A DNA stretch of 64,000 nt from Desulfoplanes formicivorans (GTDB lineage: Bacteria; Desulfobacterota; Desulfovibrionia; Desulfovibrionales; Desulfomicrobiaceae), in NCBI RefSeq assembly GCF_001748225.1, contig NZ_BDFE01000017.1:1-64000 (forward strand), read 5' to 3'. The notes beneath the pieces were generated by a model, which was not told the origin of the DNA, did no database searches, and saw only the letters and a list, made by a program, of their open reading frames with translations. A program made the translations under genes and the position numbers. This document shows positions 28,805 to 40,269 of this stretch, piece after piece. How positions within the stretch are numbered: position 1 is the stretch's first letter; each line of letters starts with the position of its first letter.

Positions 28805-28906
28805 TTGTTTGCTGTTTTTCGTGGCTTCCCAAGGCACAAAGGAATTTTGCCGCTCCTTTGTGCCTTTTGCGTGTCTGCCAACCGTCACTTATCGAGCGTC
28901 ACTACC

Positions 28907-31444
28907 ATGAAAGAACTCCTGCCCCTGTTTCCCAGGCCCAGCCATTATCTTGGCAACGAAATCAATGCCGTGCACAAGGATCCACACAAGGTCGCGGTCC
29001 ACCTTGCCCTGGCTTTTCCGGATCTTTACGATGTGGGCATGTCCTATCTCGGCCAGAAAATTCTCTATGAGATTGCCAACCAGAGGGATGATGTCTGGGC
29101 GGAACGGGTTTTTGCGCCCACCCAAGAGGTGGCTGCCATTCTCAAGGAGCACCAGACACCCCTGGCGTCCCTGGAGTCGGATACCCCCCTGGGGGAGTTG
29201 GATGCCATTGCCTTTAGCATCACCCATGAACTTTGCTATACGAACATCCTGTACATGCTTGATCTGGCCGGTATTCCCCTGTGGTCCAGGGATCGTGGCG
29301 ATGGAGATCCCCTGATCATTGCCGGTGGTGGGTGTACGTTGAACGCCGAACCCGTGGCCCCGTTTTGTGATGTCATGGTTCTGGGTGATGGTGAAGAGAC
29401 CCTGATGGATCTGATGGATGTCATTCGAAGCGGCAAAAGAAACCAACTTTCCCGTGAAGCCATGTTGCGGGAAATGGCATCCATTGCCGGGGTGTATATT
29501 CCTGCCTTTTTCCAGGACGAGGGGCCGGGGAAGCCCTTGCGTCCCCTTTATCCGGATCTGCCCATGCCGGAAAGGCGCAGTGTGGCGGATATCAATACCA
29601 TTGATTTTCCCGTGAAACAGATTCTTCCCTACGGGAAACCGGTACATGACAGATTGACCGTGGAAATCGCCCGGGGATGTACCCGGGGATGCCGTTTCTG
29701 TCACGCGGGCATGGTGTACAGGCCGGTGCGCGAGCGCTCCCTGGACGAGCTCAAACGCATTATCGACCAGGGGCTTGAACAAACAGGGTATGAGGAGATC
29801 TCCTTTCTTTCGCTCAGTACGGGTGATTTTTCCGCATTTCAGAAGCTTTTCATGCAGACCTTTGCCCAGTGCAGAAGCCAGCAGGTTTCCATTTCCCTGC
29901 CATCCCTGCGGGCCGGATCGGTCAACGAATCCCTTCTCACCCGCATGGCCGAGATCCGGCATACGGGCATGACCGTGGCTCCCGAGGCCGGAACCCAGCG
30001 ACTCCGGGATGTTATCAACAAGGGGATCACCCAGGAAGAAATTCTGGAGCATTCCCGCATGGTCTTTGCCCATGGGTGGCAGAGCATCAAGCTCTACTTC
30101 ATGATCGGTCTGCCCACGGAAACCAGGGAAGACCTGGACGGGATCCTGGATCTCTGTCTGAAAGTGCGGGATACGGCCGGGAAAAAGGCCAAACGCATGC
30201 AGATCACGGCAGCCATTTCCCCGTTTGTGCCCAAACCCTTTACCCCGTTTCAGTGGGAACCCCAGATAACCGTGCAGGAAATTGAAGAACGGCTCCAATA
30301 CCTCAGAGAGATCTTCAAGCCCTACGGGTTTTTGCACCTCAAATGGCATCATTCGCACATGAGTTTTCTGGAAGGCATTTTTTCACGAGGTGACAGGAAG
30401 CTGGCGCAGGTCATTGCCAGGGCGTTTCACAAGGGGGCCTTGTTTTCCAGCTGGTCCGATCACCTCTGTCTGGACCTCTGGCTGGAGGCCATGGACGAAT
30501 GCGGGTGTGATCCCGAGGCATATATCGGGGGTCGTGACCTGGAAGCTGCTTTGCCCTGGGATCATATCAATGCCGGGGTGAGCAAACGGTTTTTACGCAC
30601 GGAACGCGCAAGGGCCCTGGGGGAGAAATCTTCCCCGGACTGCAGGTACAACCCCTGCCGTCATTGCGGTGTGTGCGGTATGGACGGACAGGCATCCATC
30701 CTCACCCAGACCGAATCCCCCTTGCAACCGATTCTGAACAATGCGGACAGGGATCAACACCATGAGGAACCGTGCGAAGATGTGCCCAACCCGGATCAGG
30801 AGAAGTTGATCCACAAGGCCTGCCATTACCGGGTGTGGTATCGGAAAATGGGATTGTCCATTTATCTGAGCCAGCTTGAACTGCAGAGAATTTTCGAGCG
30901 GGCCCTGCGTCGGGCCGGGTTGGCAACAACCTTTTCCGCCGGATTTCATCCCATGCCCCTCATGTCCTTTGGCATGGCCCTGCCCGTGGGGGTCGGCAGT
31001 CAGGCCGAGTGGGTGAATATCTATTTTCGGGAGGAATTGAGCGAAGAGGACATCCTGACGCGCATGGACGGACAATTACCCCAGGGCATGCGTGTTCTGG
31101 CGGCCCAGCCATTGAGCATGGGCAAGAAACAGCCCCAAGCCGTTGCCGAGGAGTATTCCATTTGCTTCCAGGGCACAGAGGAACACCAAGCCCGGGCCAT
31201 GCAGGCGTGGCAGGATTTCATTTCCAGGGATACGTTTTTGATTGACAGAACCAACAAGCGAGGCAGGGTGGTGCAGGTTGATCTGCGATCCTTTGTCCGT
31301 TCGAGCAGTATGGAAGGGGAGAGGGTCAAGGTGGTCTTTGACTGGGCACAAGGGTACACCAATCCCTTGAATCTGCTCATGGCCGTGTGTCCTCATTTGT
31401 CGCCCATGCATTTTACCATGGTAAAGGAGCGGCAGATCATGTGA
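28907..31444 (+). CDS. Radical SAM protein (TIGR03960-like) fused to DUF2344
   Basis: 845 residues. The order is: an N-terminal B12-binding-like domain (KVAVHLALAFPDLYDVGMSYLG; VLGDGEETLMDL), a radical SAM core with the cluster motif CTRGCRFC near residue 265 and YEEISFLSLSTGD, and a C-terminal ~220-residue DUF2344 domain (YRVWYRKMGLSIYLSQLELQRIFERALRR). The two halves are separate genes in some bacteria. The substrate is unknown; a [4Fe-4S]/SAM-dependent modification is expected. The ATG at 28907 begins right before conserved LFPRPSHYLGNEINAV; the frame is open 34 codons upstream without a ribosome site. Confidence 0.9.
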   Translation: MKELLPLFPRPSHYLGNEINAVHKDPHKVAVHLALAFPDLYDVGMSYLGQKILYEIANQRDDVWAERVFAPTQEVAAILKEHQTPLASLESDTPLGELDAIAFSITHELCYTNILYMLDLAGIPLWSRDRGDGDPLIIAGGGCTLNAEPVAPFCDVMVLGDGEETLMDLMDVIRSGKRNQLSREAMLREMASIAGVYIPAFFQDEGPGKPLRPLYPDLPMPERRSVADINTIDFPVKQILPYGKPVHDRLTVEIARGCTRGCRFCHAGMVYRPVRERSLDELKRIIDQGLEQTGYEEISFLSLSTGDFSAFQKLFMQTFAQCRSQQVSISLPSLRAGSVNESLLTRMAEIRHTGMTVAPEAGTQRLRDVINKGITQEEILEHSRMVFAHGWQSIKLYFMIGLPTETREDLDGILDLCLKVRDTAGKKAKRMQITAAISPFVPKPFTPFQWEPQITVQEIEERLQYLREIFKPYGFLHLKWHHSHMSFLEGIFSRGDRKLAQVIARAFHKGALFSSWSDHLCLDLWLEAMDECGCDPEAYIGGRDLEAALPWDHINAGVSKRFLRTERARALGEKSSPDCRYNPCRHCGVCGMDGQASILTQTESPLQPILNNADRDQHHEEPCEDVPNPDQEKLIHKACHYRVWYRKMGLSIYLSQLELQRIFERALRRAGLATTFSAGFHPMPLMSFGMALPVGVGSQAEWVNIYFREELSEEDILTRMDGQLPQGMRVLAAQPLSMGKKQPQAVAEEYSICFQGTEEHQARAMQAWQDFISRDTFLIDRTNKRGRVVQVDLRSFVRSSSMEGERVKVVFDWAQGYTNPLNLLMAVCPHLSPMHFTMVKERQIM

Positions 31445-37359: not shown

Positions 37360-40269
37360 TTATGCCTTATTCCAATCAACGGGCAGGCGCACGGTTTGCC
37401 GGGCTTTGTTGGTGAAAAGAAGATACCCGTTGTCGCGTCCGTATCGGTACAGCCCTCTGGTCACGGCAACGTCCTGGGTGCAGTACTTGATGATCCTGTC
37501 CAGTTTTCCCTGCTTCCACCATTGAAGGGCCAGCAGACCATTGGCGGTTTTTTGTTCGCCCAGGGTGGCCTTGGCCAGATGGTCCAGGGAAAGGCGGTAG
37601 CCCAGTTGCCGGTGGACGTGTTCGAGAATGTCCAAAGTGGGCAACCCTGAAAAATCAAAATCCACGAGTCCCGAAAGCACCTTGTAATCAAAGCGTTTGA
37701 TATTGAATCCCACCACCAGATCCATGGTTTGCAGATGGTGAACCATGGATCGCATGTCTTCCTGAAGATAGGCCGTATAGTCTTTTTTCAGGGAATCATA
37801 CACCACCACGCAACTGACCCCCATCTTGTGGGCCTTGTTCCAGCCGCCGACTTCCTGGGCCGAACGCCGGGTTTCAACATCCAGGACGCCATAGTGCACA
37901 GGGTGATGCCTGGGGGATTCCTCCCTTGGGGACTGGTGGTCTGTTGAGGGGTGAGGGCTGGGCATTGAAACGTGCACGGGCTGATCCTGGGGCAGGATGT
38001 TCACCTTGCCCGGTTCCCTGGCAGGACCCCGGCGCAAACGTTTCAGGATCTCCAGGGCCGCATGTTTGTCTATGGGGCGGTTGCCTGATCCGCATTTGGG
38101 CGAATGCACGCAGGCCGGACAGCCTGTCTTGCAGGGGCAGGATTCAATGACCTGCAGGGTCCTTGCAAGGAGTTCCCGGCCTCGGTCAAAGGCCTGCCTG
38201 CATAGCCCGGCTCCTCCGGGAGTGCCGTCGTAAATGAATACGGCTGCCTGGTTTGTCTGGGGATGCAGGGGGATGGAAATGCCACCCAGGTCGTTGCGGT
38301 CCGTGAGAACCAGCAGGGGCAAAATGCCGATGGCCGCATGTTCACAGGCATGGATACCGCCCATGAAATGCAGGTTGTCCTGTTCCAAGGACTGTCTGAC
38401 CCGGTCGGGAATATCAAACCAGATGCCCTCGGTCTCGAAAACCAGGGGAGGGAGGTCCAGGGGGATCGTGCCCAGAAAGGTGCCGTTGTTGGAACGTTTT
38501 TCATATTCCGTGACCTGTTCGGTGATTCTGAGCCGTCCCAGATACAGGGTGGTGGACCAGATAGATTTGCGATCCCTGACCTGAAGGATTTCCGTTGTCT
38601 TGGACGTGTGGGGACGGGTATAGAATCCCACCTTGCGGGGTGTGGCAAAGGCCGTTGAGGTTTCAAGATCCAGGGATTCGATCACATACGTTCTGGTGTT
38701 GTGCAGATAGACCGCACCGGGATGGGTTTCGTGAAAGGCCCGCATTTTGTCGATCTGGCCCATGACCTCGCCCGAGACGGCGTCCACAATGGAAAAACCG
38801 TGTCCCGAGCCGCGCAGACTGACCTCCCGCTGCGGGTATTTGCGTGCGGCATACCAGGTGGCACCATCTTCCGAACACAGGAGTTTTCCCTGACGTTCCA
38901 GTTTCTGCAGGGTGGTCTGAACACGTGCAGATTCGGCAAAAGGTTCGTCCCTTGCAATGGGCATGTCTGCTGCGGCACAGGTGATATGGGAAGCCATGAT
39001 GAACGGATTGAAGGGATTGATCACCGCTGCTTCAGGGGGAATGGAAAAAAATTCCTCGGGATGGCGCATGAAGTATTGGTCCATGGCGTCCTCGTGGCCG
39101 ATGAGAATGACCGCGGATGTTTTCCCGGCCCGGCCGACCCGACCGGCCCGCTGCCAGGTGGCCATGATTGATCCGGGATATCCCAGCAGGATACACAGAT
39201 CCAGGGAGCCGATGTCAATACCCAGTTCCAGGGCACTGGTGCTGACCACGGCCAGGAGCCGACCGCTGACCAGATCCGCCTCAATGGCCCTGCGTTCCTC
39301 GGGCAGGTACCCGGCCCTGTAAGGACTGATCCGTTTGCCAAGTTTTCCCGCTTTCTGGGCGGCCCACACGGAGATGAGTTCGGCCATTTTTCTGGACTGG
39401 GTGAAGACCAGGGTTCTGAGTTGGCGGGCCAGTGCCGCCTGCAGGAGAACAATGGCGGTTTGGGATGCGCCTGCGCTCTGGCCGTCAAGAAAGACAACAT
39501 GCCGCTTGGAGGATGGTCCTCCACTTTTGTCCACGACCTCCACATCCAGGCCTGTCAGGGCCGAGGCCAGTTCGCCCGGATTGGCGATTGTTGCCGAGGA
39601 AAAAATAAAGGTCGGATGCTTTCCATAGGCCGCACAGATGCGGAGCAGCCTTCTGAACACCCAGGCCATGTGTGAACCCATGACCCCGCGATAGGTGTGT
39701 ACCTCGTCCACAATGACGAAATCCAGATTTTTGAAAAAGGTTTGCCACGTAGTGTGGTGGGGAAGGATGCCCAGATGGAGCATATCCGGGTTGGTCACCA
39801 GCACGCCAGGTGGATTGTTTCTGATTTTTGCCCGGTGCCAGGAGGAGGTGTCCCCGTCATAGATGGCTGCCAGCGGATGGGGCAATCCCATGAGATGCCC
39901 GGCAAGGTTCTGCAGATTCTTGAGCTGGTCCTGGGCCAGGGCCTTGAGGGGGAAGAGAAACAGCGCCCTGGCCTGCGGTTTTCTGAGTAACGTGTCCAGA
40001 ACCGGCAGGGCATAGATGAGGGTCTTGCCACTGGCTGTGGGCGTGGCAACCACGCAATGCCTGCCCGAACGAACAAGATCAACGGCCCTTGCCTGATGGG
40101 TGTAGAGCCTGTCCAGTTTCAGTGTGGCCAGCATGGCGTTGATCTGCGGATGCCAGGGACGCTCGGGATCGGCGTAGATGGCGTTCTTGGCCGGCAGAAC
40201 GGCATGGTGAACCAGGTCGGGAGCAAGGGATGGATAGTTTTTGAGCCTGGAGATGTAATCGTCGATCAT
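37360..40269 (-). CDS. MrfA-type helicase fused to MrfB-type RNase H-like exonuclease
   Basis: 969 residues. N-terminal SF2 helicase: Walker A ATPTASGKT at 75-83, DEVH at 188-191, FSSATIANP, then GYPGSIMATWQRAGRVGR (motif VI). The DUF1998 region follows, with a Cys cluster CPCKTGCPACVHSPKCG near 709-728 that probably binds zinc. After a Pro/His-rich linker comes an RNase H-like exonuclease domain (from about residue 793): YGVLDVETRRS, VVGFNIKRFDYKVL, LPTLDIL, YCTQDVAVTRGLY, the DEDD set of MrfB/YprB. In Bacillus, MrfA and MrfB are two proteins for mitomycin C lesion repair; here they are one chain. Confidence 0.9.
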   Translation of the reverse strand: MIDDYISRLKNYPSLAPDLVHHAVLPAKNAIYADPERPWHPQINAMLATLKLDRLYTHQARAVDLVRSGRHCVVATPTASGKTLIYALPVLDTLLRKPQARALFLFPLKALAQDQLKNLQNLAGHLMGLPHPLAAIYDGDTSSWHRAKIRNNPPGVLVTNPDMLHLGILPHHTTWQTFFKNLDFVIVDEVHTYRGVMGSHMAWVFRRLLRICAAYGKHPTFIFSSATIANPGELASALTGLDVEVVDKSGGPSSKRHVVFLDGQSAGASQTAIVLLQAALARQLRTLVFTQSRKMAELISVWAAQKAGKLGKRISPYRAGYLPEERRAIEADLVSGRLLAVVSTSALELGIDIGSLDLCILLGYPGSIMATWQRAGRVGRAGKTSAVILIGHEDAMDQYFMRHPEEFFSIPPEAAVINPFNPFIMASHITCAAADMPIARDEPFAESARVQTTLQKLERQGKLLCSEDGATWYAARKYPQREVSLRGSGHGFSIVDAVSGEVMGQIDKMRAFHETHPGAVYLHNTRTYVIESLDLETSTAFATPRKVGFYTRPHTSKTTEILQVRDRKSIWSTTLYLGRLRITEQVTEYEKRSNNGTFLGTIPLDLPPLVFETEGIWFDIPDRVRQSLEQDNLHFMGGIHACEHAAIGILPLLVLTDRNDLGGISIPLHPQTNQAAVFIYDGTPGGAGLCRQAFDRGRELLARTLQVIESCPCKTGCPACVHSPKCGSGNRPIDKHAALEILKRLRRGPAREPGKVNILPQDQPVHVSMPSPHPSTDHQSPREESPRHHPVHYGVLDVETRRSAQEVGGWNKAHKMGVSCVVVYDSLKKDYTAYLQEDMRSMVHHLQTMDLVVGFNIKRFDYKVLSGLVDFDFSGLPTLDILEHVHRQLGYRLSLDHLAKATLGEQKTANGLLALQWWKQGKLDRIIKYCTQDVAVTRGLYRYGRDNGYLLFTNKARQTVRLPVDWNKA

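Follow-up and report, generated by a model that had tools for sequence, protein, structure and literature searches.

A YprA-family helicase tethered in one chain to a putative DEDDy exonuclease, probably assembled independently of MrfA-MrfB, in Desulfobacterota

The gene at positions 37360-40269 (minus strand) of the window, that is, of the whole 64,000-nucleotide stretch of Desulfoplanes formicivorans DNA analysed here, probably encodes a housekeeping single-chain enzyme in which a 3'-5' helicase of the YprA family carries, on a flexible linker, an exonuclease of the phage/polymerase-proofreading DEDDy type. Under this explanation, the protein is MrfAB-like but was assembled independently and is not a fusion of MrfA with MrfB. 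Sequence comparison establishes the architecture, the intact catalytic residues of both halves, their phylogenetic placement apart from MrfA-MrfB and the near-obligatory linkage of the two parts within the phylum, while a role in the repair of mitomycin damage is suggested by analogy only.

A sequence-only reading of the window had proposed a helicase and a DEDD exonuclease in one chain, and both the ORF and its Pfam domains bear this out: the window's ORF list holds a single 969-aa ORF spanning exactly the above positions. From the N-terminus, and all on the minus strand, the chain comprises a RecA1/DEAD domain (residues 57-229, positions 39583..40101; Pfam PF00270, 104 bits) with a Walker A motif, PTASGKT, at residues 77-83 and DEVH at 188-191, most motif columns being invariant or nearly so in a 30-sequence alignment; a RecA2/Helicase_C domain (residues 280-382, 39124..39432; PF00271, 58 bits); an HRQ1-type winged helix (WHD_HRQ1, residues 418-487, 38809..39018; PF22982, 37.7 bits); and an MZB (MrfA Zn-binding)/DUF1998 domain (residues 643-721, 38107..38343; PF09369, 80.3 bits). 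The DUF1998-type Cys cluster that the reading had named, CPCKTGCPACVHSPKC (residues 711-726, 38092..38139), is a Zn-binding cluster in which C711, C713, C717, C720 and C726 are invariant across the 30 sequences. The Pro/His-rich linker was also described correctly; it occupies residues 736-793 (37891..38064), with residues 762-788 predicted to be disordered (pLDDT under 50 in the full-length model), and its length among 99 relatives is 41-160 aa (median 50). The remainder of the chain is a predicted DEDDy 3'-5' exonuclease domain (residues 794-969, 37363..37890) recognized through RNase_H_2, phrog_403 and Foldseek, the Pfam RNase_H_2 match lying at residues 831-942. The AlphaFold model has a pLDDT of 86.8 and a pTM of 0.84 for the whole chain, and the model of the exonuclease domain has a pLDDT of 94.6. 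Elsewhere in the window, an 879-aa ORF at 28805-31444 (+) reads like a radical SAM protein with a DUF2344-like domain.

The helicase half combines intact SF2 motifs, a DUF1998/MZB domain with its Cys cluster and the MrfA fold, and hence belongs to the YprA/MrfA family. Its best PDB sequence match, over residues 40-723, is B. subtilis MrfA/YprA (6znp; E 1.5e-148), which is also the first Foldseek match of the whole-chain model (E 2e-69, TM 0.73 on the target, 36% identity), and the best family models are of the repair type (TIGR03817, MrfA). B. subtilis MrfA (6znp, 6znq, 6zns) has the same RecA1-RecA2-winged helix-DUF1998(MZB) set with a Cys cluster; the protein studied here differs in having an exonuclease at its C-terminus and a Cys cluster with a longer end, PKCGSGNRPIDK, and falls in a separate clade.

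The catalytic set of the exonuclease half, based on a 113-sequence alignment, is D797, E799, D861, Y929 and D933. The Exo I motif, D797-x-E799, lies within DVETRRSAQEVGGW (37873..37881), the Exo II aspartate, D861, within GFNIKRFDY (37687..37689), and Exo III, Y929-x3-D933, at 37471..37485 gives the DEDDy signature; E799, D861 and Y929 are each present in 113/113 sequences, and D797 and D933 each in 112/113. When the domain model was searched against the PDB with Foldseek, the proofreading domains of archaeal family-B and T7 DNA polymerases came out at the top, MrfB (8un9) being outside the top 50. These polymerase domains, which also use DEDDy chemistry, are thus the best fold match, albeit at only 10-20% identity and with no polymerase in the present protein.

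The main functional rival to our preferred explanation is that the enzyme processes replication forks or recombination ends in the manner of WRN, rather than mitomycin-type adducts. WRN joins a RecQ helicase to a DEDDy exonuclease, that is, the same combination of an SF2 3'-5' helicase and a DEDDy exonuclease, and both the proofreading-type fold and a gene neighbourhood without a link to excision-repair genes would suit such a role. The anatomy is compatible with the explanation that we prefer, and it is the substrate that differs; on that point, the helicase belongs with MrfA, and the member of that family studied in B. subtilis acts on damage caused by mitomycin. We treat a WRN-like role as a tentative alternative that is rather unlikely yet deserves serious weight. 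WRN and DinG of S. aureus, the latter a helicase with an exonuclease (PMC12345164), resemble the fused protein in having a helicase and a DEDD exonuclease in one chain, but belong to other helicase families and carry the nuclease at the N-terminus.

A second alternative is that MrfA and MrfB were literally fused and that the exonuclease later drifted from DEDDh to DEDDy. The sequence-only reading had indeed assigned the nuclease to the YprB/MrfB type, and of this assignment the DEDD residues hold (112-113 of 113 sequences) while the subfamily does not. MrfB/YprB (8un9) and the fused domain have in common the DEDD 3'-5' exonuclease superfamily, Pfam RNase_H_2 (i.e., they are homologous at the superfamily level) and a YprA-family helicase as partner. 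MrfB of B. subtilis, however, is the product of a separate gene, is a DEDDh enzyme (D107, E109, D172, H258, D262) and carries a TPR domain at its C-terminus (PMC11194089); the His is invariant in 20 MrfB sequences at the site equivalent to the Tyr of the fused domain, and the fused protein ends 36 residues past D933, with no TPR found by Pfam in the query. The profile check that the reading had proposed gave a divided answer: RNase_H_2 matches at 41.6 bits (curated cut-off, 22 bits), compared to 142 bits for a genuine MrfB of the same phylum. When the exonuclease domain of such MrfB proteins was searched against the PDB, 8un9 came up at E 2.2e-67; this entry is absent from the PDB matches of the fused-domain profile, where polymerase matches were only marginal. 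The fused exonuclease domain by itself, searched by sequence against the PDB, returned nothing meaningful. Split mrfA-mrfB pairs, with an MrfB ORF of ~440 aa beside a helicase gene of ~800 aa (e.g., at loci L059 and L047), occur in the same phylum, and the suggestion that the fusion is a single-polypeptide version outside Firmicutes, with the implication that MrfAB is a Firmicutes system, accordingly fails.

The fused exonuclease instead groups with phage proteins. The domain matches phrog_403 (DNA polymerase exonuclease subunit) at 56.9 bits, and its matches in phage genomes include a putative exonuclease from Bdellovibrio phage phi1422; the first match among viral models in the fold search was H9C0I0 (TM 0.82, 214 aa), which, judging from its length, is probably the phi1422 protein. 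The phage stand-alone exonucleases (phi1422 gp06; IMG/VR loci L175-L181; phrog_403) consist of a DEDDy domain of ~170-220 aa with no helicase joined; the IMG/VR relatives mostly share 28-37% identity with the fused domain, and most carry the same DxETRxxAxEVGGW and YCxxDVxLT motifs. In profile comparisons, the fused domain matched phi1422 at 98.3% (E 1.7e-14) and MrfB at 84.8% (E 6.5e-6), and MrfB matched a small RNase_H_2 family at 97.9% (E 3.2e-13). A tree of 56 sequences and 191 columns placed the fused domain and the phage proteins on one side, and MrfB, including that of B. subtilis, together with the small RNase_H_2 family on the other (support 100/98). The fused clade (95/90) is nested among the phage proteins (99/97), although its exact phage sister is unsure due to the few phage sequences, the long branches (phi1422, 2.55; L176, 1.64) and the 191 columns. 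Based on the profile comparison and this grouping, MrfB is the wrong name for the fused domain. Two of the phage exonucleases, L175:3962-4570 and L178:3977-4579 (IMG/VR), have the motif form DLETRxLAxEVGGW and lie between two genes of ~600-640 aa, which may be packaging or portal genes. The phylum holds a second stand-alone RNase_H_2 family (L056-L058, L061, L063, L065 and relatives), which is also DEDDy (YNxxDV) and is nearer to MrfB than to the fused domain.

The helicase tree (53 rows, rooted on one distant haloarchaeal row) gave a parallel picture. One clade (100) unites B. subtilis MrfA with the other helicases encoded in mrfAB pairs; the fused proteins lie outside it on a branch of their own with moderate support (SH-aLRT 90), their sister group being helicase-only proteins of the same phylum (both together, 100); the deeper order is uncertain because the rooting depends on that single haloarchaeal row. 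The MrfA identity proposed by the reading is therefore right at the level of the YprA family and wrong at the level of the B. subtilis MrfA clade. Two further loci, L042:2-2673 and L043:273-4015, reverse the usual mrfA-mrfB order, with an MrfB-like gene lying upstream and the helicase gene after it; their helicases, labelled helicase-only in the tree despite that upstream gene, branch with neither the fused clade nor the MrfA clade. Taken against a literal MrfA-MrfB fusion, the placement of both halves in the two trees, the Tyr fixed in 113/113 sequences, the absent TPR tail and an RNase_H_2 score ~100 bits lower outweigh the common superfamily, the 85% probability of the profile comparison and the mention of fused MrfB/YprB homologs in a preprint (PMC12458937), and we consider such a fusion improbable.

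The independently assembled single-chain enzyme that we favor is widespread in the phylum. Among 297 Desulfobacterota genomes surveyed, 132 have a whole-protein match at E <= 1e-30 and 86 have the C-terminal exonuclease domain, nearly always within a long helicase frame; these genome counts come from samples, and a single peptide pattern recovered at least 580 relatives from genome contigs. In the best 80 of these relatives, all named loci, helicase and exonuclease are one ORF in 75; three of the other five are cut by contig ends, a fourth is apparently frameshifted and the fifth is a genuine stand-alone exonuclease. Since the one-ORF arrangement recurs so often, the fusion is neither chance nor an assembly error. 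The hosts among the matches listed are overwhelmingly sulfate-reducing Desulfobacterota (named genera: Desulfobacter, Desulfobacula, Desulfosarcina, Desulfoluna, Solidesulfovibrio and Desulfomicrobium), and the gene is usually single-copy and spread over many families. That is, the survey counts, the one-ORF loci and the host names make this architecture an ordinary one among sulfate-reducing members of the phylum. Outside Desulfobacterota, the plasmid matches listed (actinobacteria, haloarchaea) cover the helicase only. The proposal that helicase and nuclease work on one substrate fits with how rarely the two parts occur apart in the phylum. One fragment of the fused gene (L110:3-1382) was found on a contig labelled as a Gammaproteobacteria MAG, which is probably misbinned or a case of transfer.

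Around the 80 loci we found no widely shared neighbour gene, any one neighbour occurring in at most 14/80, and the lack of a conserved neighbourhood fits a solitary housekeeping gene rather than a defence cassette. YprA helicases are central to several anti-phage defence systems (PMC12458937), and a component comparable to those of DISARM, Dpd, Druantia, ARMADA or TALON would also be in line with weak cross-matches to the BrxHI, DruE and DpdJ models; with no conserved defence operon or recurrent partner genes in the 80 loci, repair-type best models and a gene that is mostly single-copy across many families, we regard this explanation as very improbable. TALON offers a partial likeness, as its YprA helicases, largely from Chloroflexota, also have a C-terminal RNase H-fold domain, but an inactivated one, and are accompanied by NERD, TPR-CSD and TBP genes (PMC12458937), whereas the active site of the fused protein appears intact by sequence and those neighbours are absent. 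An inactive exonuclease domain, kept as a vestigial or structural appendage, is equally far-fetched, given that all catalytic residues are kept in 112/113 sequences and that stand-alone versions persist (L036, L132), even if one fused relative (L054:2995-5955, G073) has Asn in place of both D797 and D933 and thus probably a dead nuclease on a retained helicase.

The two stand-alone exonucleases differ in their settings. The first (L036:4971-5630, G228) is 219 aa long, shares 58% identity with the fused domain and lies directly downstream of a gene that, read by eye, is dGTPase-like; G228 had no helicase match in the survey, and a remnant of the helicase N-terminus, looked for at this locus, did not score above shuffles. 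The second (L132:2290-2901, from a Desulfobacterales MAG) is 203 aa long and immediately follows a holA-like gene; it opens with INEYIDSLISS, which resembles the N-terminus of the fused helicases more than shuffled sequences do (score 49 vs. a shuffle maximum of 39), and the gene looks as if it arose by an in-frame deletion of the helicase.

MrfA travels along DNA in the 3'-5' direction, and the removal of nucleotides by MrfB-type DEDD enzymes likewise proceeds from 3' to 5'. Because these directions agree on one strand, the tethered exonuclease could degrade, from its 3' end, the strand that the helicase tracks. Specifically, the helicase would load at a lesion or a damaged end and move 3' to 5' along one strand, opening the duplex ahead, while the exonuclease would remove the 3' end of the helicase's own strand behind it, such that the damaged strand may be unwound and degraded in a single pass. 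A similar arrangement, with a free 3' end near the MrfB active site, was proposed from a model of the B. subtilis MrfA-MrfB complex (PMC11194089). In the literature searched, we found no experiments on any member of the fused family, and searching it for Desulfovibrio phenotypes related to mitomycin or fitness returned nothing relevant. As for origin, the two parts were probably brought together a single time, in the ancestor of a subset of the phylum, with a stand-alone phage-type exonuclease as the source of the nuclease. The fuller scenario, in which a proofreading-like exonuclease of phage type was captured once in that ancestor and joined to a YprA-family helicase, giving a WRN-like single-chain enzyme that replaced the MrfA-MrfB used by other Desulfobacterota, has in our judgement about an even chance of being correct.

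The fused architecture itself is not new, since YprA helicases "fused to MrfB/YprB homologs" have been mentioned before, in a preprint of 2025 (PMC12458937); the identity and origin of the fused nuclease appear to be new. If borne out, they would also carry a warning, namely that RNase_H_2 annotation lumps different nucleases together as MrfB. The contact between helicase and nuclease in B. subtilis has only been modelled, and the fused protein offers a one-chain object for studying the MrfAB mechanism. Further, if our explanation is true, evolution has combined a DUF1998 helicase and a 3'-5' DEDD exonuclease on two or more occasions, drawing on different nuclease subfamilies, and such a repeated origin would be a stronger sign of joint action than a simple gene fusion.
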